DNA of 64,000 nucleotides from Datnioides undecimradiatus (taxonomy: Eukaryota; Chordata; Actinopteri; Lobotiformes; Datnioididae), in NCBI GenBank assembly GCA_008933995.1, contig WARS01000051.1:2170001-2234000 (forward strand). The letters run 5' to 3'. The position numbers and the translations under genes were made by a program. Below are positions 3,001-21,607 of the stretch, piece by piece. The notes below the pieces were generated by a model. It saw nothing but the letters and a program-made list of their open reading frames with translations. It searched no databases and was not told where the DNA came from. Positions within the stretch are counted from its first letter, which is position 1. Each line of letters starts with the position of its first letter.

Positions 3001-3535
3001 ACTTTGAAATTGTCAAATTTGTTTTCATTATTGTCTTCTCACAAATGAAAATACAAGTACCACCAGCAGATTTGGTAGGAACATGACAAGATCTGTGAGA
3101 ATCTGTGAGAAAATAAATCAAAGGGCCGCACCGAGCTCTTGTCATCAGTACAACACTAATAATAGATGACATAGCTTCCTACATGTTAGCTGTCAAACAG
3201 TGCTGTGGAAACTCTCCATCTCAGTTTTACTACTTGTGGTAAATGGCCTGGAATACCCTGGAGTTTTCATTGGAGAAGGATTTTTCCATTACCTGAGGCA
3301 TTAGTTTTCCCACTCGTTGAGTTATGGGCTCATTTAACACCACCTCCACCTTGCACGCATCCTTCTGTCGGGGAATATGGAACTGCAGGTCACCCTCCTG
3401 GAGGTAGGCTGCCTGCCCCCGTTTCACCTTTAAACCCTTATTGACTTTCACAAGGGAGCTGTGTGATGAGCAGGTCATTCCCAGCAGAAGCAGTGGAAGC
3501 AGGGTCCCGGCCAGCGTCTGACCCTGGGAACCCAT
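1..3535 (-). CDS. frem1: FREM1-like extracellular matrix protein, N-terminal part (7 coding exons; runs off left edge)
   Basis: FREM1 is a secreted basement-membrane protein of the FRAS1/FREM complex that anchors epithelium to mesenchyme. Coding exons in transcript order are 3535-3293, 1716-1622, 1536-1226, 1041-845, 708-385, 287-179 and 78-1; junctions are GT-AG and phases match. The start at 3535 is the first ATG and opens a signal peptide ([19 protein letters not shown]). Segments such as [61 protein letters not shown] and DTNAPRVSW follow the human FREM1 N-terminal region in order and lead into the first CSPG repeats. About 452 residues are encoded here; the remaining CSPG repeats, Calx-beta and lectin domains lie outside. 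FREM1 fits better than FREM2 (different N-terminus) or FREM3. I cannot tell frem1a from frem1b. Confidence 0.93.
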
Positions 3536-3736
3536 CACTGTTAGTCACGAGCTGACGTCCTGTAGGGTCTTCACAGACTGGCTCCAAACGGAAGTAGGAT
3601 CGCTTTCAGGAAACGCACGTCAGTCTGGATAACTAACAAATGTCTTTCTCTTGAGAAGAAGCTGCATTTTCTGCTGGTTGTATGTTGTGTCCTGACGTGT
3701 TTATGAGCTTTGAGCAGTTCACATGATCTTCAGGGG
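3536..3736 (-). other. frem1: frem1 5' UTR part of the start-codon exon (predicted)
   Basis: On the minus strand a strong acceptor (pyrimidine-rich tract ending TTCTTCCACAG) puts the exon start at 3736, about 200 bases before the ATG at 3535. This implies at least one upstream non-coding exon, as is common for FREM1. Two upstream ORFs lie here: ATG directly followed by TGA at 3724-3719, and a 15-residue ORF at 3667-3620. The exon boundary is inferred from the sequence alone. Confidence 0.5.
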
Positions 3737-8804: not shown

Positions 8805-9339
8805 GTATTCTGCTGAAAACATGAGTGGATAACATTTGGCTGCTGTCCAGAACCATGGTCCAGAATGTGCAGCAGAGAGCTAAGAAGCTACCAGATAGTC
8901 CCTACCTGCTAGAAACAAGAGCTGGGTATGTGACAGATGGGTGAAAGTGCAGCTTTGTTTGAATGTTGCAGAGACAGAAGCACGTTTGTGCGGTCTCACA
9001 ACCATTTTACCCATAAATACACCCTCAAGGAAGATGATCAGTAGGTAAGCAGTTCCGTCAAATGTATACCTGGCTATGATAGTTCCCACCAAGTGCTTAC
9101 AACGTTATATTAAAATATTACTGCAGGACTTTGATGAGGCGTCTGTTGATTGGTTGATGACTTTTGAGACGCTCATCAAAATCATGAATAAAGAGACACA
9201 GGGAGCCACATCAAAACAAGAAAAACACCAAAACTAGAGGCAGAAGAAGGAGGAGGCATCAGAGCAAACATCTCATTAGGTTCCTGAAGAAGAAAGGTCC
9301 CCAGTGGTGATCGCCACATGCATTTAGACATGTCCTTAC

Positions 9340-9605
9340 CTGATCTGCTAACATCTGGCGATTCTCCTTCCTCCTCCCTACCTGCCTGCTCTCCGCAGCG
9401 TTCAACAAGCAAACTACCTCATTGACAGAATCTCGCTCGCTCCTCAGCGACAAACTCCACCCACAAGGGAGTGAGATGAGTAGGGAGGGAGGAGGAGGGA
9501 GGGACGGAGGCCGAGGGCAGGAAGAGCTGACGGAGGAGGCCTTCCTCCTCTTGCTGCTGCCGTGGGATCGGTTATCGGAGCGGAAAAACCTAAAGACAAA
9601 CACGG
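9340..9605 (-). promoter_or_regulatory. Candidate upstream promoter / non-coding first exon of frem1
   Basis: A GC-rich block ends, on the minus strand, in a consensus donor (AGCAGATCAG|GTAAGG; last exon base 9340). It could pair with the acceptor at 3736 that begins the frem1 start-codon exon. The block has a G-quadruplex-capable run on the plus strand at 9483-9503. No TATA box was seen. The link to frem1 is inferred from splice-site logic and position only; it may belong to an unrelated transcript. Confidence 0.3.
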
Positions 9606-12459
9606 AGCCCTGAGATCAAAGACGGGTCCAAAGTGCCTGGTGGTTTAAGGAACAGCTTTGTCATTATTGAGTAGAGAGGAGCAAAGATAAAAGGCTTAAC
9701 GCTGCACTAATGTAAGGGAAGCACCAAAAAGAGACAGAATGGACTTTATCTGCTCTATGAAAGGACACACACACTGTGGAGCTGCTGCCCAGTGGTGTAA
9801 ACCTGGAAAAAACACAAAAGGCATGAAAAAACATCCCAACTTAACAAAAACTTGGATATTTTCATCGTCATTATTAAAGGTTGCCTGTGTGTGATGTCAA
9901 AGTTCTTGCAGTGAGGAACAGAACGTGATCTCTGCAGCTCCTCAGCACTGCGGACCTTTTTAGGTTCCTTTAGCTTTAGTTTTGCCTCTCTGCTCACATC
10001 GAAAATGTTTCCAATCAGCGTCAGAAAGCTATCTTTATAGTGAAAGCTCTAATAAATGAATCGTCCATGATCTGCTCAGCACCAAACAGCAGGCAGACCC
10101 GGGTTAATGTAGTGGAAGCTTTAGCAGCTAAAGATATTCTGTATCTGGGAGCTGGTGGAGACCAAAACTGGAACTAACTTCAGTTTAGACTTCCTCTGTA
10201 GGCACAATGCCCTGAAGTAACCTCTGATTTGGCACTGTGCAATCAAAATTGAATTAAAGTGAATTGGACTGAACTGATTTGAACATCATAAAGTCTTAAG
10301 TATAACTCTATATATTTTGAAGTAGCCTAACATTTGTCTTAACAGCTGTATGACAGCAAAAAACCAAATCCAACAATGAAAGTAGAACTCAAAGTCAAAT
10401 TTCAACAATAGCTATTATCAGCGTTCACATCCAACCAGAGGGACTGTCATAACGTTGTGCTGCGATTTAAAAAAAACACATCACAGAGGAGTTTTGAAAT
10501 AATTCCATTTTAAAATTAAGCACTCAAATCCAGAAAAATGAATAAAATGTATTTTAAGTTTCGTGTTTTCTTCTTTTTTAACTCAGGGCGAAACCTCCTC
10601 TGAACACCACCAGCAGGTGCTCATTAAGTTCAAAGCTGGATGATAGTCACTGACTCAAGTGAGCGCATCAACAGTTTTATCAGCTCTTCTCGTATCAGTG
10701 TTTAGAGGAATGTTAGCGGGTGTTCTCCCACCCCCTCAGTGGAAATGACTCCTTTATCGTTTGACCAAAATAATATTTAAAACAAGACTGAAGCTGTGCG
10801 GCTGTGTGGTTACTCATTACGCCCAAAGTGATGAAAGTGATGGTTTAGCTGCTCTAACGGCTGGAGGAGGTTTAAACAGATGAATGTGTACAGTATGCGG
10901 CTTTCGTCAGTTGGGATGGATTTGAATTGAATGTGCTGGTCGTTGCTCTGGACCGCACTCAGTCCTGCACGATGCGGCCTCCGTGCAACATGAAGTGCGC
11001 TCCTCTCTGGAGACCTGAACATGCCTCAGATGTAGTTGACAGAGAACTAGCAGCACATATAAAACCCTACTAATGCTGAGTCTGCAAATTCCATTTCATT
11101 AAATATATTAAATACATATAACTAATCCACTTTACTACACTTGGACTGATGTGTGTTGTGGTATATGAAGGATACACCTCATCTAAGGAAGGAAAAGACC
11201 AAGCTTCTGAAACACTGTCTGCATATCAGCACTTCAGTTATGAGCTTTGTTCATTCTGACCCACACTGAGTCACCAAGCGCCAAACCAGGGTCGCGTAAC
11301 CGTGGCTGTCTGCAATGCAAACCAGCCGAGAAGACTTACTGTACTTACTGGACAGGCCCTGCATTAGAAGCAAACATATTTTACAGTATGCTAGTCGCTG
11401 GGTGAAGAGTTGCTGCATGTTGCAAGTGAGTATAAAGTCCTGATCTTCAGTAGGCAGTCATCAGCAGGTCAACACTGACACAGTACTGTACTGACACTGT
11501 ATTGGCTCAATTTTACAAGTTTGAGCTTACTATTATTTTGTAATATATTACTTTATATAAATCATCAGAGCTTTATCTGAAAATAAAGAATTTACAAAAT
11601 AAACTCTCTGAACCTTGGAAAACTGATTGTATTATTTGGTTCAAAGCTAAGTCCTCTGAGCTCAGTGTTACAAGTGATGCTGAAACGTGTGTGAAGTTCT
11701 CTGTGAGGCTGTGAGTCGGACAGATCCCTCACTGAGCAGACGGACACAAAGAGCCGCTGCCGAGACGAACCAGAAAATCACATTTGTGGCATTTATGGAC
11801 GAGGAAACCCTGAAACCGTTAGGCTGAACCTGCAGGACACGGCCCAGCAGCGCCCCCAAGAGGGTCACTGCTAAACTACTTACCCCATGTATCATGTTGG
11901 TCACTCACAATACAAAGAATTACAAGAGCTTTAGTGTTAACATGATGGGATCAAAATGAGAGAATGACTCACAGTTACATGTATGTGAATGTGTGTTTGT
12001 TAGCATGTGTGCCCGGTGAGGTGTATGCAGGGGTTATGTGTATATGAGTGTTACAGGTGGGAATGTGTGTGTAGGTATGTATTAAAGTATCCTATGCATG
12101 TACCAACATGTAGTATGTATATATATATGTATGAGTATATGTAGATAGAGAGATACAGATTATTAATATACTGTACTGTTGACTTGATTAACAGTGTTAT
12201 ATGTCAGAATATCCTACTCACCTGTGACTTGTGTTGCTACTTTAATTCCTAGAAAGAGGACAACAATGGAGATAAGTTATTCTTTAATAAATGTGCAAAT
12301 GGTCCGGCATATATTTTGAAATATATTTTTAAAATGCATTTCAATATAACCTCTGTTATTTTCCCATCTTTCCTTTGTTGAGCCTGCTGCTCCACACTGT
12401 GGCTCATTACAGTGTTTGTCCAAAGGAAGCTGAGGAACATTCCTCAGATTCAGAGGAGG
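9606..12459. other. Intergenic stretch, no gene recognised
   Basis: Only short open frames without domain features occur. The DNA is AT-rich with small TA/TG-rich runs (for example near 12115-12135). It separates the frem1 5' side from the TGF-beta-like gene, the two being divergent. Confidence 0.5.
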
Positions 12460-12612
12460 ATGGCCTCACTCAGTCCTGACAGCCCCTGTGGTTCCTGCAT
12501 GCCTGAGTGCACAGGCTGCTGCAACCGGCCTGCCAGGTGGACGTTTCAGCAGCAGACACAGGATCGTATGAGACCGCTTGGAAACTACTCATACAACTGC
12601 ATATACATCAGA
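12460..12612 (+). other. Possible in-frame N-terminal extension of the prodomain-like protein
   Basis: The exon 1 frame stays open upstream, with another ATG at 12460 that would add 51 residues, including a cysteine cluster (CGSCMPECTGCC). A start there would place the signal peptide internally, perhaps as a membrane anchor. I favour 12613 because it gives a normal signal peptide; the transcript start is unknown. Confidence 0.3.
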
Positions 12613-14231
12613 ATGGTCGGAGCGCTCCGTTTGGGGTTTCGTGACGTGACGCTGGTCTCCCTCCTGCTGTGCTCTGTCATGGGCTTGCTGCTGGTGGACC
12701 ACCACGGAGGTGTGGAGGACAACCAGGAGCTCAACAAGGCCATTTTAGAGATGCTGCATATCAACAAAGTGTCTGCGAGCCACCAGGCCAAGCCGCATCC
12801 CTACATGAGGAGGATCTATCAGCGTCTGGACTCGGTGGAGGCCCAGGACCTCGGGAGTTCAGATGGAACGCTGGTGCAGAGTTACCGCAGTGTCGCTGGT
12901 GAGAATTCTAAATGGCTTGCTTGCTCTCTTGTTTCAATTACTCTATTGTCCCTCAGTGATGACTTTTAATAGTTTTATTTAAATCTAATCATGACGGATA
13001 AAAGAAGCACTGGAGAGTTAACCTGAGCAGGCAGCAGCCCGACACCTGCTGTGACATTGCTGCTTTGGCCAGATGTTCTACACGCCTAAAACCTTACTAA
13101 GTATGAAGATGAATGAGTTTAAAATGAGAACATATATATATGATAATATACAGACAGTTGGATGAAATATGAAATCAATGTGCTTTAAAGCTGGATTTTT
13201 GGCCACTTGGGGGCAGCAGAACAAGCTATAGATGCTACTGACATGCTATCACCATGTAAAGCTAACATTGTAACAAACACAGAACAGCAGTAGAACTTAT
13301 CTGGACCCATGTTGGTGTCCATCTGATGAACCTCAGCCTGACATCACTCTCCCTTTAGCTCAGACTCCTGAGAGGAAAGACCAGGCTGCTAACTGCAAAC
13401 AGTAACAAAAGCAGCATAAAAACATTAATTAGTGCAGCTGTAATAGGCATAAACAAGAGAGATATATGATGTGTCAGATGCTACGTTTCCAGACACTTTA
13501 TGAACTGAATGATATTTGTTACTAAGCTCTGTAGAAACATCTGCAGCACCTTCCACAGTTCACTCATCCAGTGACTGAATTATGCAACTCATGTCCTGCA
13601 AACTTGTCCTAAATGTATGATTTTACAGGTTTTAATTATAATAATTATAATAATATATATAATTATGAAATATAATTATATATACACTGTAAAAGGACTT
13701 CACAGATTAAAGTGTCTGCAGATTATTGTTCCAGACCAAAATGAACGGAAAGCAGCCGGTACCTGCAGCGGTGAAGTGTGTATGTGCAGTGATATCTGTT
13801 CTTTGGGTCACCCAGGCCCACATCACGCTCCTCCGGGGTGGATCTGGTTCAACGTGAGCAGTCTGAACCCCTCCATGCTGGGTGCAGAGCTGGTCCTGTT
13901 CAGGAAAACCCTCCACCCCCGGCCCATCAGCGTGACCGTCACCCTGCACAGCGTCACAGCTTCGCAGGGGGCCCTGAGGGAAAGCCCAGCACTGGAGGAG
14001 AGGCTGCTGACCCTGGACCAGCGACCCACGTCCGGATATGATGTGTTTGACGTGTCGGCTGTTCTTGCTCTGAAGCCCCTGGAGGTGGTGGGCTTTCAGC
14101 TGCGCTACACGGACGAGAGCGGCAGTCTGGTCCTTCATGAGGCTTTGACACAGAGTCTGTACTGTCTGAACAGAGGCTCTCTGAGTGAACCTTTACTGGT
14201 GCTTTACCAAACATACCCCCTGCACGTCTGA
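12613..14231 (+). CDS. Secreted BMP/TGF-beta prodomain-like protein lacking the mature ligand
   Basis: Exon 1 is 12613-12898 and exon 2 is 13816-14231; the phase-1 junction (G|GC, GTGAGA donor, CACCCAG acceptor) gives 233 residues. The chosen ATG has a strong context (A at -3, G at +4) and begins a signal peptide (MVGALRLGFRDVTLVSLLLC). Prodomain-type features follow: an N-terminal helix (NKAILEMLHINKV), YMRRIYQRLDS, SDGTLVQSYRSV, GWIWFNVSSL, an AELVLFRKTL strand, YDVFDVSAVL, and a final EPLLVLYQTYPLHV with TGA. In BMP-type ligands the last segment is followed by a basic furin site and a cysteine-knot domain. None is present in any frame up to 15600. An AATAAA at 14716-14721 suits a short 3' UTR. 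It may be a true prodomain-only gene or a truncated paralogue. The family call is from motif pattern, not a search. Confidence 0.72.
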
Positions 14232-14715
14232 CTCAATGGGACCAACGTTAAATACGCATACATACAATGTAACCTTTTTAGCGTCACCATCATTATTATT
14301 CTGAAACGTGTAATTTAACTGAACCAGAACTTTGTTTTAATGGTAATCTTTTATTTTGAAAGTGTAGGGCAGTTTATGGGAGTTGCATGTCATCAGCTTG
14401 TACAGCTGGCTGGTATTAATATCAATATCTTTCAGTCAGCATCACAGAAGACAGTTATGCCAAGATTGGTTAACAGTTAACAGTTGTATGAATATGGAGT
14501 CGCATGAATTAATGAGTGTTCAGCTCTGCGGACCAAAGGAACCTGATGAGAGGTTATGACATGACACAGTATCTGAACCTAAATATACTTAAAGTACCAA
14601 GAGTTAAAGTTGTTGCAGCCCATTCCAGGATACATGATATCATAGTCATTGATAGATGGATGTACCACTTTGCAGCTGGTCATAACTGTCTATTCTGCTG
14701 TGAAACATGATCTAC

Positions 14716-14721
14716 AATAAA
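14716..14721 (+). terminator. Polyadenylation signal of the prodomain-like gene
   Basis: Canonical AATAAA 485 bases after the stop codon at 14231, with T/G-rich DNA just downstream. Confidence 0.5.
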
Positions 14722-15580
14722 TATTTGATTTGTTGCTAACAGCCTATTTGTTTTATTGAATTGAACAGACAGTTAATGGGAGCATAAGATGGGAGCAGAA
14801 GTCAAAGTGCCTTGAAATTCTACTTAAGTACAATAGCTGAGTAAAAGTACTCTGTTACTTTCCACCACTGTTCTTCTGTCACTGCTGGAGCTTTGTATAA
14901 TGTTGATTCCCTGGAAGTCTACTGACCATTTTCACTCTGAATGGGTTGAAAATTGCGTGGACAAACATTTTCAACCCATTCAAAGCGTGTGTGTGAAACG
15001 TTTAGCGTAAGTTCCTGCTTTCCCACTTCCACCATTCTCACTGTGGCTGCTGCCTGTCATTGTGTCACGTGTCAGAGCTGGCAGGTTTTGGGGCTTTTGC
15101 CTCCTGTTGACTGCAGTTATTTTGTGCATTTTAAATATTTGCACATTGGTTTTGTTCTGTTTGTGGAAGCCATGATGGTTTGCATTGTGATTTATGTCAT
15201 ATGGTGGAAAAATTCAACAAGAACATTGAATATATATTCTAATTAGAAGATTTTTAAACTACATTTAAAATGTAATTTTATCAAAATTCAAGTTTAATTT
15301 ACATTTTCCGACAAAATTACAAAGATGGTACAAAACACAGTGTGGAAATCAAATGTATGATGGTACTTTAAAAAATAAAACTGAGCATGTTTATTATAGT
15401 AGGTCTTGTCCTTATTGTTATGTTTCTGGAATTGTTTCATAAGGACTTCAAGATGAATTTAAATTCCAGAATATTGCAGTTTTACGGCGTATTACTAATT
15501 TCCCGCCATGTGACCTAGTTAAAAGTGGGTTGCTATAGCAGTTCCTTCTTCTTCCTTCTCCTCTTCTTAATTAGCCCTTA
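14722..15580. other. Intergenic stretch between the prodomain-like gene and tspan5
   Basis: Apart from the hAT-like end fragment, it is AT-rich with no exon recognised. A 97-codon frame at 14953-15246 has scattered cysteines but no cysteine-knot spacing. Confidence 0.5.
14815..14870 (-). mobile_element. Terminal fragment of a teleost hAT-like element
   Basis: The block from TACTTAAGTACAATAG to TTACTTTCCACCACTG is the reverse complement of a widespread fish terminal repeat beginning CAGTGGTGGAAAGTAAC. Only one end is recognisable and no duplication was found. Confidence 0.5.
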
Positions 15581-15587
15581 ACGTTGA

Positions 15588-15971
15588 GGACACCGGAAGG
15601 GCGCCATCCTTGCTCTCATATCATTGGTTGCAACCTCTGTCTTTCAAGTCTTCCGTCAGCCAATCACAGACGAGCGTCCGGAGCAGCGGTGCCGCCCCCT
15701 GTAGGCGCAGTTCGCCCAGAAATCGGAGGATAATTTAGACCGTGCGGTTCGCTGCCCTGACGTCCGTTTATATTTCGAGCACTAGGTGCGCGAACGCGTC
15801 CCGGGCTCGTGTCAGCATGCTCCTGGTGCGGGTGTGAAGCGGCTGCGTGGACATCCGAAGCGGACAAAGTGAAATGCATCCTCGGGGCGCTGAACCTGTT
15901 CCATCCCGCACACAAAGCCTGTGAAGCAGGCCGTGTTTTTCCTCACGCACTGACACCGATGATGCTCAAAC
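15588..15971 (+). promoter_or_regulatory. tspan5: tspan5 promoter and 5' UTR
   Basis: A CpG-rich TATA-less block contains an ETS-type CCGGAAG next to a YY1-type GCCATC (15593-15608), an inverted CCAAT box (CATTGGTTG, about 15623-15631) and a direct CCAAT (CAGCCAATCAC, about 15658-15668). Three upstream ORFs follow: 15817-15837, 15874-15924, and an out-of-frame ORF from 15959 that overlaps the tspan5 start. The exact start site is not determined. Confidence 0.55.
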
Positions 15972-18900
15972 ATGTCGGGGAATCATTACAAAGGCCACGA
16001 AGTCAGCTGCTGCATCAAATACTTCATTTTTGGATTCAACATCCTGTTCTGGGTAAGAAGCTTTTATTATTTGCGCGACGCGGCTGCGCCTCTCTCCAGT
16101 GCACTTCGGTTATTATCGGCTCCGCTGGCCAATAGGGAGGAAGGCCGCAATCATCACCGCATCTTAAAACGGAACCGTTATCGTTCATGCTCACATTCAC
16201 GGTCGGACCCGGGTGGTGCGTGACTGCGGTTGTGTTCATGCAGTAATATTGTAATAAATAAAGCAGCTGCGGGTCGGTTGACAGCGCGCAGCTAATCGGC
16301 TTTCTGTAGTGACCTAATGGGAGCTGAGCGCCTCGGTGTCACTGCAGGCTCATCACCCACCTGACACACACACACGCGCGCGCGCGCGCACACACACACA
16401 CTCCTAAAGCATCCAGCACCTTACACCCGGTCCCGGCGTTCTTCACAATGTTCAGACATGACGTAATAAGTTTGAAAAGGTGATGTCAATCATTTAGAAG
16501 GCGTTTCCAGTTATTGTTCATTATCTCTGCAGCGGCTGATCGATTAATCAGCATATTAATTATGTCTAATTATGTCACATTTGAATCGAGCGCGTGCAAC
16601 AAGCACTAAGGGGTCTTGGGCGCGCGGGCTTTGTTGGCGTCACCATGCGCACCTGCTGATTGAGTTCGCATTTGCACTATGTGCTATAAGAACAGACCTG
16701 CAGGGATCTGACTATGCAATGGTTCCCATATGTGTCTGTGAAAGATGAATATCAGCTGACTAAACTCTGATCAAACTAGTGGCCTGCTCATTTTCTGCTG
16801 ATTGATTAATTGGTTATTAATAGGTTATAATTGGACTTCTCAGAATGCTGACTCTGCAGTTAATGATCATATGAGTGATAAAGACCAGTGAGACCAAACA
16901 AAGAAACATACATGTAATAATAACATCAGAAATATGTTATTAAAACCTAAAACTATATTTAAATCTTATAAATAATTGTATATAGTAAACGATGTTGAAA
17001 CAAACGGACTTTGTTATTAGAGTAACTTATTATAAAGTGTATGCAACACAGCTGATAGACGTTACTATGATAGAAGGGAAGGTCAGATCAGAGTCAGGCG
17101 AGCTTGACTGATCCCACATGATCATGGGGTCATGTGACCTCACAGGCCATTACTGTGTTTTTCATGTCGTAAGAACGTGACATGCCTGCCACCGTGTCGT
17201 TTTGCATGGAGGTGTGTTTTGCAGTGATCTGACGTGACTGTGGTGTGTTGCAGCTGCTGGGCATGGCCTTAGTGGGGATCGGACTGTGGGCGTGGAGTGA
17301 GAAGGTGAGTAGAGACGCTTGGACATTACTGAGGATATTGGAAAATAGGAATGGTCATTTTAAAGTTCCCTGTTGGAAGTCTGATTAATAATTAATTAAT
17401 GAAGTGAATTAATAAAGTGTTTGCAGATCTATATCATTGTGAAGGTGATTAAACACACATTTAAAACTGATGCTCAGAGTCTTTGTGTTGAATCTGGTCC
17501 GTGCTGTGCTGCAGCCTCACTCACCCTCTGAGTTCAGACAAGTCTCAGTCTCGTCCCGTGTTGACGCCGCCGGGGCGCTGTGGGCGAACTCGTGTTGCGT
17601 CCTGGGAGAGACGCAGCTGCTCGCCTCAGACTGAGCCGTGTTGTTGTGCTCTGCCTCTCTCCTGCAGGGGGTTCTGTCCAACATCTCATCCATCACAGAC
17701 CTGGGGGGTCTGGACCCGGTCTGGCTGTTCATGGTGGTCGGTGGGGTCATGTTCATTCTGGGTTTTGCCGGATGCATCGGGGCGCTCCGGGAAAACACGT
17801 TCCTGCTCAAGTTTGTACGTTCCATGACAAGACCTCCAGTTTGCACGCCGCAGTGGCGAAGGATTGAACCTGGGTGACCTCAGTGTCTCGTTCTCTGTCT
17901 GTGGCCGCAGTTCTCCGTGTTTCTGGGGATCATCTTTTTCCTGGAGCTGACGACGGGGATCCTGGCGTTCGTCTTCAAGGACTGGATCAAGGACCAGCTC
18001 AACCTGTTCATCAACAACAACATCCGGGCGTACCGGGACGACATCGATCTACAGAACCTCATCGATTTCACTCAGGAATACGTAAGTGGAAACAACAGCA
18101 GAGAATCACCCAGATACAGGTTGACTGAAAGTTTAACACTAGCACCTTGATTCTAGCTTTTTTTCCACAGCTTTCAGCCACGTCCCACAGTCTTCTTCAG
18201 TAAATAGGGTTTGTAAAGCAAACACGTGATTATCATGAAACACTGAGACACTTAAACAAGGAGCAGGGACAAACAGGTTTAACATGAGAACAAACTGAAG
18301 GAGTCAAAACAAAGAGTGGATGTTGCTGCAGCGCCTCCTAGCTGCTGTTTTACTGGCTTCTGATCCATCAGACAGTTTACACCACCTCAACCATGAAAGA
18401 GGTTCTGTAGGAGGAGAGGACCTGGACCCAAAAGTCCCAGTTGGTGTTATTTTAGTCATGGGATCATAAAGGTCTTGTAGTTTTGTATGTGCATCAGATA
18501 AAAGTGATAGATGACAGCTGATGAAGGTGACGGGCTGTGACTGCAGGAGACGTTCTCACAGGCACAGGTCAGACCAACAACAGCAGCTCCTCCGAGTTAA
18601 ATGAGGTGACACGGCTCTGTGGAGGCTTTGACTTCAAAAGCCACAAGCTCGTCTGATTGGACTAGTGAGTCCTTATTAATGAGGGGAACCAATCAGGTCA
18701 TCAAGTCCGCTTGTGGTGCTTCTAATTCTATTAATGTCTGGAACTGCCCATTGAGAAAAGTGCTCTGTCTTTCCTGGAACGTGGAGCCCAGCAGACGGGG
18801 CCTTTAACAGCCGTTTTTCCCTCCCTGCCTGATCAGTGGGAGTGCTGCGGCGCGTTTGGAGCCGACGACTGGAACCTGAACATCTACTTTAACTGTACCG

Positions 18901-21607
18901 ACGGGAACCCCAGTCGGGAAAAGTGCGGCGTTCCCTTCTCCTGCTGCACCAAGGACCCAGCGGTACGATTCCCTCACCCTGCATGCTCACATCGTACAGT
19001 ACACCATCTCTGACCTTTCCAATATGAACCCATTTACGTCTTTTTGGAATTAGTCATGTGTGAATTTACTGCTTGTGTCCTGAAATATGTTCAGAACGAC
19101 CACAACACAGCGTAGGACCTGAGGAAGTTCTCTCAATTCAAATAAAATGCCTGAAGCAAACGAGAAGGCTGATAAAACTTGACAAAAACCCAAATTAATG
19201 AGGCGTTGTTTGTGCTGGTGCTCCAGAGCTTCATCATTTCATTGTTTTTATGCCTCTGCCGGCCACAGCTGTTGCTAAATGCCTCATGTTTGAAGGTTTT
19301 CTGTCTGTCCCATTCTTGGACATCAGATTTGGCTGGATTCAAGGGTGAACTGATTAGATTCTGGAGGTCAGAGGTCAGCGTCACTGTGGCTTCACTCCAG
19401 AGGTTTTTGGCCATGTGAACATGATCTCTGGGATGTTTTAAGGGAGCTTCTTTAAATTTGGCACCAACAGCTGGACTGGAAGACGAATTGAAGGTCACAG
19501 TGACTTCACAAAACACATTTTTTGGCTTAAATATGACAAGATTTTACACAAATGAGAGGATACGTAAGGAAATAATTACATTTCATATATTACTGGAGTC
19601 TGGGCAGACATGGATGGTCACTAGAACTTGACTGGCTGGTGGAGAACAACCATTAGTGGTTGGTCCAAGTTTATAGCTGTCCCTGAACGGTCCAGCAGGT
19701 TTAAGATCAGTGTCCAGTCTGGATTGGTTTAAAGGTTCCTGTATGATGAGTTCTGTGACTCTGAGGATCCTCCTCACTGAGCATCATCTGGACAGAAGTT
19801 CAGCTACACCAGTGACCTTCCCATCAGCCTCAGCAGTCTCCGTGCTTAGCAAACATTAGCATGCTAACACAGACGCCAGGCGTTTCCTCAGGGTGTCACT
19901 GTGGCTCACGCAGCTGCTGGATGTTAGCTGAGGTACAACTCTGCTCTAAAAAGGTTGGACACTGTAACGTGTGCTCTATTTGTCCACAGGAGGACGTAAT
20001 AAACACTCAGTGTGGATACGACATCCGGGCTAAACCAGTAAGTGACCGAAATGATCTGATTTCCAGATCAGATCCAGATTTCTTCCAAAAAATGTAAAGT
20101 TTATTCCACCAGTTCAGTGATTCAGTGCAAAAGATTGTACTAACCAGTGGCAAATGGTAGCCATCTAAAATAAAAACATGATTTTACTGCTCTCTTTGCA
20201 CACATACACACACTACAGAACATCACTCATCTGTGATCCTTCACTGACTGATTTAGGAAACGCTGCCAAGATTCAAGGTTCATTTCCAAGTTCACCGCTA
20301 GTCTGCTAAGCGCAGCGCACACCTAGCAAAGAAACAATGAAACCGCACAACACCACCGCACTCAGACTGACACACTCGCGCAGGTAGCGCGCTGTACAGT
20401 TACACACAGTGATTACTCCGCTCGGCTGGCTGCCACACAACCACACCTTAATAACAGTGTTACAGTTACTAATACAAAGACACAACACACGAATTAAATG
20501 CACAACCCCAATGCTTGACGAATTCAAGACGGACATTATAAAAATCATTAAACGAGTGCGGAAACAAAGCGCGACGAGTTCAACGAGCTGCAGCGATGCG
20601 GCAATCCAGCAGTAACAATTCAGTTTCACTCACCTGTGACGTTCACTTGAAGACGAAGTCCATCCGTCCGTCCTTTTGGATTAATTTTTCAATAACCCCG
20701 GTCATAAAGCTGATCACTGCATTCAGATCCGAGAGAAGTTGCATTTCTATAGCTGTCGAAGTCCCAAACCCTCCCAGCAGCAGACCCTCTTGTGCCGAAC
20801 CGAGCGTGTAAACTATCCGGTCCGAGCTGCTAGCGGTCGCACATAGCCCGCTTTAGCCGGTTGACGGAGTCCGACGTGTTTGGGCGTTGGGCAGACTCTT
20901 TTTTTAAGCAATGTCCATCTTTTCGCTGAACAGTCGTCGTGAAAAGGGCACTGACACTAAACTCCGCGACAATATCATCTCCACCTGTTGCCATTTTCAA
21001 TGTTGCTACGGACCGCTAGTTAGCATTAAGCTAGGTCCCCTGTTAAAGTAACTGTGCGGGTCTCCGAGAACGCCCAGTAGCCGTGGGAAAACCTAAAGAA
21101 CACGCCCATTGCCTAAATTTCTAAACGTGATTGGTTGATCAAACGGTCAATTCAAAGGTACGCTCTTATTCAGTTTAACGGCCATGGCGTTCTACCGAGG
21201 CTATACAATACCTTAAACCGAGGATATTCTGCCCAGCGACGCAGCAGGAAAATATCTGATTGGTTGCATTCTTTTTCCAACACACAACCACCTAAAGTGT
21301 AGCGCGCGGACGTAAACAACTAACACAAGCCGGCGTAACATCGTAATACAGCAAACAATCAACACGAAGACAGTTTTTATTCATTTTATTCGAATTTAAA
21401 TTTTTATTATAATCAAATGTTTTTATTTTTCCTTCTTTGAATACCTCGAAGGCCCTGACTATTCGCCACTGGTACTAACAGGTGGATTAAAGCGGCTAAT
21501 AGCCAATAATTATGCTAATGCTAAATGTTGCTATCGGAGGCCAGGATTCAAATACTGAAAAACACGTGAATTGTGAATCTGTGTCTCTCTGTACTGAACT
21601 CACAGAA

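Follow-up and report, generated by a model that had tools for sequence, protein, structure and literature searches.

A two-exon gene encoding a BMP/GDF-type prodomain without a ligand in Datnioides undecimradiatus

Structure of the gene

A stretch of 64,000 nucleotides from Datnioides undecimradiatus (assembly GCA_008933995.1, contig WARS01000051.1, positions 2,170,001 to 2,234,000 of the forward strand), hereafter called the window and the reference for all coordinates given below, carries a two-exon gene whose product corresponds to a prodomain of the BMP/GDF type within the TGF-beta family. The reading frame of this gene ends where its paralogues in the same genome continue into a cleavage region and a ligand. 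A preliminary description, made without database searches, had proposed two spliced exons and a product of 233 residues; this gene model is borne out to the base (Table 1). The joined coding frame has 702 nucleotides and its product ends in LYQTYPLHV. Upstream of the proposed ATG the frame of exon 1 is open for a further 77 codons (12382-12612, back to a TGA at 12379) and contains three more in-frame ATGs (12460, 12499 and 12568). The start is therefore probable rather than certain, and a longer N-terminus of the product is possible.

The N-terminus that follows the proposed ATG looks like a signal peptide: after a basic start, hydropathy reaches a peak of 2.75 at residues 17-27 (a hydropathy measure). 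The first of the two predicted helices of exon 1 may, by analogy, correspond to alpha-1 of the straitjacket. The second includes the motif PHPYMRRIYQRLD, which resembles the P..YM..(L/I)Y motif of the paralogous BMP/GDF genes when the paralogue exons are compared. At the place of the N-glycosylation sequon, FN-x-S/T is present in 8 of the 13 paralogous sequences that form the profile described below (BMP2, BMP4, BMP16, three BMP10-type, GDF5 and GDF3) and missing from the two GDF6 and three Nodal sequences.

Both exons carry a coding signature. A codon-use score trained on 18 ligand-bearing open reading frames (ORFs) of the genome is highest, among the six frames, for the coding frame of each exon (0.211 and 0.229 bits per codon), and in both the G+C content has its minimum at the second codon position and its maximum at the third (0.64/0.35/0.77 in exon 1). 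When stop-to-stop ORFs are ranked by the same codon score, exon 1 comes fourth and exon 2, whose ORF includes intron sequence, only 17th of 112.

Table 1. Positions of the features of the prodomain gene and of the neighbouring matrix gene in the window
Feature	Position	Strand	Details
Exon 1	12613..12898	+	ATG at 12613; donor CTG/GTGAG; ends 1 nucleotide into a Gly codon (phase 1); signal-peptide-like N-terminus and straitjacket-like helices
Predicted helix, residues 35-53	12715..12771	+	AlphaFold2, no alignment; mean predicted local distance difference test (pLDDT) 62.9
Predicted helix, residues 63-75	12799..12837	+	AlphaFold2, no alignment; carries the PHPYMRRIYQRLD motif
Intron	12899..13815	+	917 bases, GT-AG, phase 1
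Exon 2	13816..14231	+	Acceptor CACCCAG/GCCC; arm-domain-like beta region, all in one exon
N-glycosylation sequon NVS, residue 108	13851..13859	+	Within FNVSSL
Cys212	14163..14165	+	Sole cysteine outside the signal region
End of exon 2 (TGA)	14229-14231	+	Last residues LLVLYQTYPLHV; paralogues continue there into the basic cleavage region and ligand
AATAAA hexamer	14716..14721	+	Polyadenylation-signal-like
FREM/FRAS-type extracellular matrix gene ORFs	316-840 and 3233-3544	-	Opposite to the prodomain gene; Cadherin_3, Frem_N

At the DNA level the genome contains one copy of this gene, apart from a short repeat in the intron (13183-13237), which has 10 other matches dispersed in the genome. A stretch of the 3' flank (14781-14884) has 17 such dispersed matches. 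Both are probably fragments of interspersed repeats. A Rfam scan of positions 9000-20000 gave no match.

Prodomain similarity and missing ligand

A prodomain profile was built from 13 sequences of the same genome: BMP2, exon 2 of BMP4, BMP16, three BMP9/10-type genes, GDF5, two GDF6, GDF3, two Nodal and a partial ADMP. The family names of these genes are our own assignments from their ligand sequences. The window protein scores 34.4 bits against this profile, in an alignment that spans residues 36-180 of 233. The best of 5000 shuffled versions (3980 of which scored high enough to be reported) reached 8.2 bits, 4000 block shuffles reached at most 9.4 bits and the reversed protein obtained -2.4 bits. 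When all six-frame segments of the window are ranked with the same profile, the ORF of exon 2 is first (E 6.5e-5) and that of exon 1 second (E 0.0099), the third being already at E 3.8. The similarity does not depend on one group of paralogues: with any one of five groups left out of the profile the window protein keeps 23.0-34.0 bits, against 11.1 bits for the best of 4000 block shuffles. Genuine sequences, when held out, score between 36.2 (GDF3) and 107.3 bits (BMP2). By profile, the window protein is a BMP/GDF-type prodomain and, at 34.4 bits against 36.2 for the lowest held-out sequence, has diverged a little further than any of the genuine members tested.

The fold of exon 2, predicted without an alignment, is most like the prodomains of TGF-beta1 and BMP10, at low confidence. 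The gene also shows an organization characteristic of BMP/GDF genes, a phase-1 intron between straitjacket and arm with the arm contained in one exon, and the phase-1 donor lies at the same place in the BMP2/16, BMP10 and GDF5/6 paralogues (read by eye from genomic sequence). The match to PF00688 (TGFb_propeptide) that the preliminary description had put forward as a check was not obtained: a Pfam scan of the whole window protein returned no family at E up to 10. This profile is a weak test here because, in a genome-wide search with it (E 0.001), the loci of GDF5 (C66), GDF3 (C468:3.56M), GDF9 (C467) and BMP15 (C67) are likewise absent from the matches listed. A search of PDB sequences gave nothing beyond two matches at the level of chance (E 0.61 and 1.6), and a search of the same genome with the protein recovered the window protein itself and one match at E 9.57, with no close relative. 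Pattern searches for relatives in collections of genome contigs and viral contigs returned 109 and 16 stretches, respectively, none of which is a relative; the one fish genome covered by the searches for relatives is the assembly of the window itself.

The preliminary description had also noted that the frame stops without a basic cleavage site or cystine-knot ligand, and motif scan, ligand profile and, for this contig, the Pfam search of the genome are all negative. No [RK]xxR motif occurs anywhere in the 233 residues, and K182, R192 and R215 are the only lysine or arginine residues after residue 171. A profile of 18 ligands from this genome picked out no ligand in the 64 kb of the window, where its best segment, at 33 kb, had E 0.49. 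A genome search with PF00019 (E 0.001) produced at least 63 matches, counting the best candidates only, none of them on the contig of the window (C8). In BMP2/4/16, BMP10, GDF5/6 and GDF3 arm domain and ligand share one exon, so that a ligand of this gene need not be sought far away. As the ligand domain and an RxxR-type site were both looked for and neither was found, the gene is not a growth-factor precursor of the TGF-beta family. It encodes a BMP/GDF-type prodomain with an intact frame and without a ligand, as gene structure, profile scores, ligand searches and fold likeness agree.

A tblastn comparison with the same 18 ligands, covering 11501-19000, aligned at best 21 residues at about 15990-16052 (E 0.009), which fall within the adjacent tetraspanin gene, in its first coding exon, and were taken as a chance match. 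Displacement of the ligand by a transposon was discarded, the downstream DNA being single copy except for the repeat of about 100 bases at 14781-14884.

Origin and possible role of the ligand-less gene

Among the genes of this genome, GDF5/6 provide a lead to the nearest relatives. A GDF5/6 profile gives 17.0 bits on exon 2 and 10.3 bits on exon 1, compared with 7.1 and 7.3 bits for the best of 2000 shuffles each, and all other single-family profiles, of which five were applied to exon 2 and six to exon 1, stay under the shuffle maximum. GDF9/BMP15, BMP9/10, Nodal, BMP2/4/16 and GDF3 were accordingly rejected as single-family matches for exon 2. Removal of GDF5/6 from the 13-sequence profile is also the most costly (from 34.4 to 23.0 bits), and exon 2 is 24%, 26% and 33% identical to that of GDF6a, GDF6b and GDF5, respectively. 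Two results weigh against this placement: the highest whole-protein identity in the tree alignment is with BMP16 (24%, over 200 columns), and the group that the window protein forms in the tree with GDF5/6 and Nodal has a support of just 65/70. The end branch of the window protein is long (3 changes per column; GDF3, 3.32). An ADMP origin is not favoured, both ADMP-type genes of the genome having their arm split over several ORFs.

The resemblance extends to the GDF5/GDF6 precursors themselves (which we take to be L030/L058, L027 and L029/L059). They share with the window gene two exons divided at the same position by a phase-1 intron, a PH.YM..Y helix motif, an F(N/D)VS(S/T)L..GAEL strand and a V(F/L)DV motif, in addition to the best single-family score for both exons and 24-33% identity over exon 2. 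However, these precursors run on through a basic cleavage region to a ligand with 7 cysteines in the same exon, where the window gene stops.

Three ligand genes of the GDF5/6/7 class were recognised (C66:295679, C307:33604627 and C480:9955564), presumably one GDF5-like and two GDF6-like. No GDF7-like ligand gene was recognised among those read of the 63 PF00019 matches; GDF7 may be absent from this genome or may have been missed. Synteny showed nothing that points to the window gene as a GDF7 remnant. The neighbourhood of syndecan-2 is the place of GDF6. The name 'GDF16', given to a gene next to syndecan-2 in PMC1464127, consequently supplied no lead for the window gene.

How long an unselected frame would survive was simulated under unconstrained change, with an assumed rate of 12 indels per 100 substitutions and a kappa of 2. 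The 702-nucleotide frame stayed intact in a fraction 0.398 of 2000 runs at 0.01 changes per site, in 15.8% at 0.02, in 1% at 0.05 and in 0.000 (rounded) at 0.1; with substitutions alone, it survived in 15.7% at 0.1 and 1.3% at 0.3. A decaying ligand was still detected in 60 of 60 runs at 0.1, in 80% at 0.2, in 30% at 0.3 and in none at 0.5, an optimistic estimate because the test ligand is one of the 18 in the profile. A slow fading of the ligand in a gene whose prodomain was equally unconstrained would thus be very unlikely under this model. The simulation leaves two histories: selection on the prodomain after loss of the ligand, or a recent and clean excision of the ligand. The preliminary argument that the intact gene speaks against random decay is therefore strengthened by the codon signature and the simulation, but it does not extend to a recent clean deletion.

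We incline to the view that this is a real, single-copy, two-exon gene, derived from a BMP/GDF-type ancestor nearest to GDF5/6, which lost its ligand and whose secreted prodomain was kept by selection and acts in trans. The ancestor would have lost both the cleavage site and the cystine-knot ligand, the ligand-less form being most likely retained by selection thereafter. Alternatively, a single recent deletion may have taken the ligand part of exon 2, the prodomain frame being intact merely for lack of time to decay. We regard this as rather unlikely. The exon does stop abruptly at the expected end of the prodomain with nothing ligand-like after it, intact frames are common in the simulation below 0.02 changes per site, and the long tree branch could reflect relaxed constraint. 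However, the genome contains no close full-length paralogue, neither exon has lost its codon signature and the sequon, splice sites and motifs have all been kept; ordinary gradual decay of the whole gene, as a route to ligand loss, is very unlikely under the simulation.

It is improbable that the animal has a ligand that is missing here, through an assembly deletion or because it lies in a distant spliced exon. The analysis covered one assembly, but none of the PF00019 matches falls on the contig, nothing in the 64 kb of the window resembles a ligand (best E 0.49), a separate ligand exon would be unusual given the organization of the sister genes, and the short common repeat is the one part of the downstream DNA that is not single copy. 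At least as improbable is that the protein is no TGF-beta-family prodomain at all, and that it represents either a secreted beta protein unrelated to the family or two open frames paired by chance. The joint profile score, the leave-group-out tests, the fold likeness obtained without an alignment, the phase and place of the intron and the coding signature all argue against this.

The product of the gene would be secreted, judging from its N-terminus, and would fold as straitjacket helices plus an arm domain. The free prodomain might bind a BMP/GDF relative in trans, either as mature ligand or as proprotein, and serve as a buffer, an antagonist or a folding helper. Since both helix motifs, the arm strands, the sequon and the single cysteine outside the signal region have been kept, binding in trans would be the likeliest role, and an antagonist or buffer the likeliest form of it, although this suggestion is a tentative one. 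The fuller proposition, a vertebrate lineage in which selection dropped the growth factor and kept the prodomain as a secreted trans buffer or antagonist of BMP/GDF ligands, is doubtful as it stands. The preliminary interpretation thus holds for the prodomain, the missing ligand and the intact frame and fails for the PF00688 match, while the antagonist or carrier role that it suggested is still conjectural.

In the precursors of the TGF-beta family the prodomain folds the ligand, escorts it and holds it, and the prodomains of several members fold alone and bind ligand. The independently expressed TGF-beta1 pro domain of Gentry and Nash (1990) reportedly binds the mature ligand; like the window protein it has no ligand in the same chain, there by experiment and not as a natural gene. 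The latency-associated peptide and the prodomain of pro-BMP10 (PDB 8rew, 7poi and 5vqf) are made within a ligand precursor and released by cleavage, whereas the window prodomain, with its low-confidence model, would be made alone. Noncovalent complexes of propeptide and myostatin are described in PMC3906830. No natural prodomain-only gene of the TGF-beta family is named in the titles and abstract openings of the literature searched, which was incompletely covered. Should selection be demonstrated in other species, the gene would be an uncommon natural case of a prodomain encoded by itself. It would allow independent prodomain function to be tested cleanly, and its product might be a new secreted protein that regulates BMP/GDF signalling in fish. 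A fresh truncation would instead be a modest example of gene loss at an early stage.

Neighbouring genes

The left neighbour is a FREM-type gene with Cadherin_3 and Frem_N Pfam matches, and the right neighbour is a tetraspanin gene (Pfam), which we take to be TSPAN5-like. A further neighbour is presumably a RAP1GDS1-like gene, the piece scanned giving no Pfam match. Two other TSPAN5-like copies lie on C325 and C467; the 8 kb examined on one side of each contained neither an intact sister gene nor a relic (best tblastn E 0.25 and 0.55). None of the at least 63 PF00019 matches (best candidates) lies on C13, the home of a second RAP1GDS1-like copy. Contigs C471 and C472 contain three pairs of tetraspanin matches whose scores are equal and whose offsets almost coincide, and a fourth pair that is nearly so. 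This suggests that the two contigs are duplicated haplotigs or a near-identical pair of sequences in the assembly.
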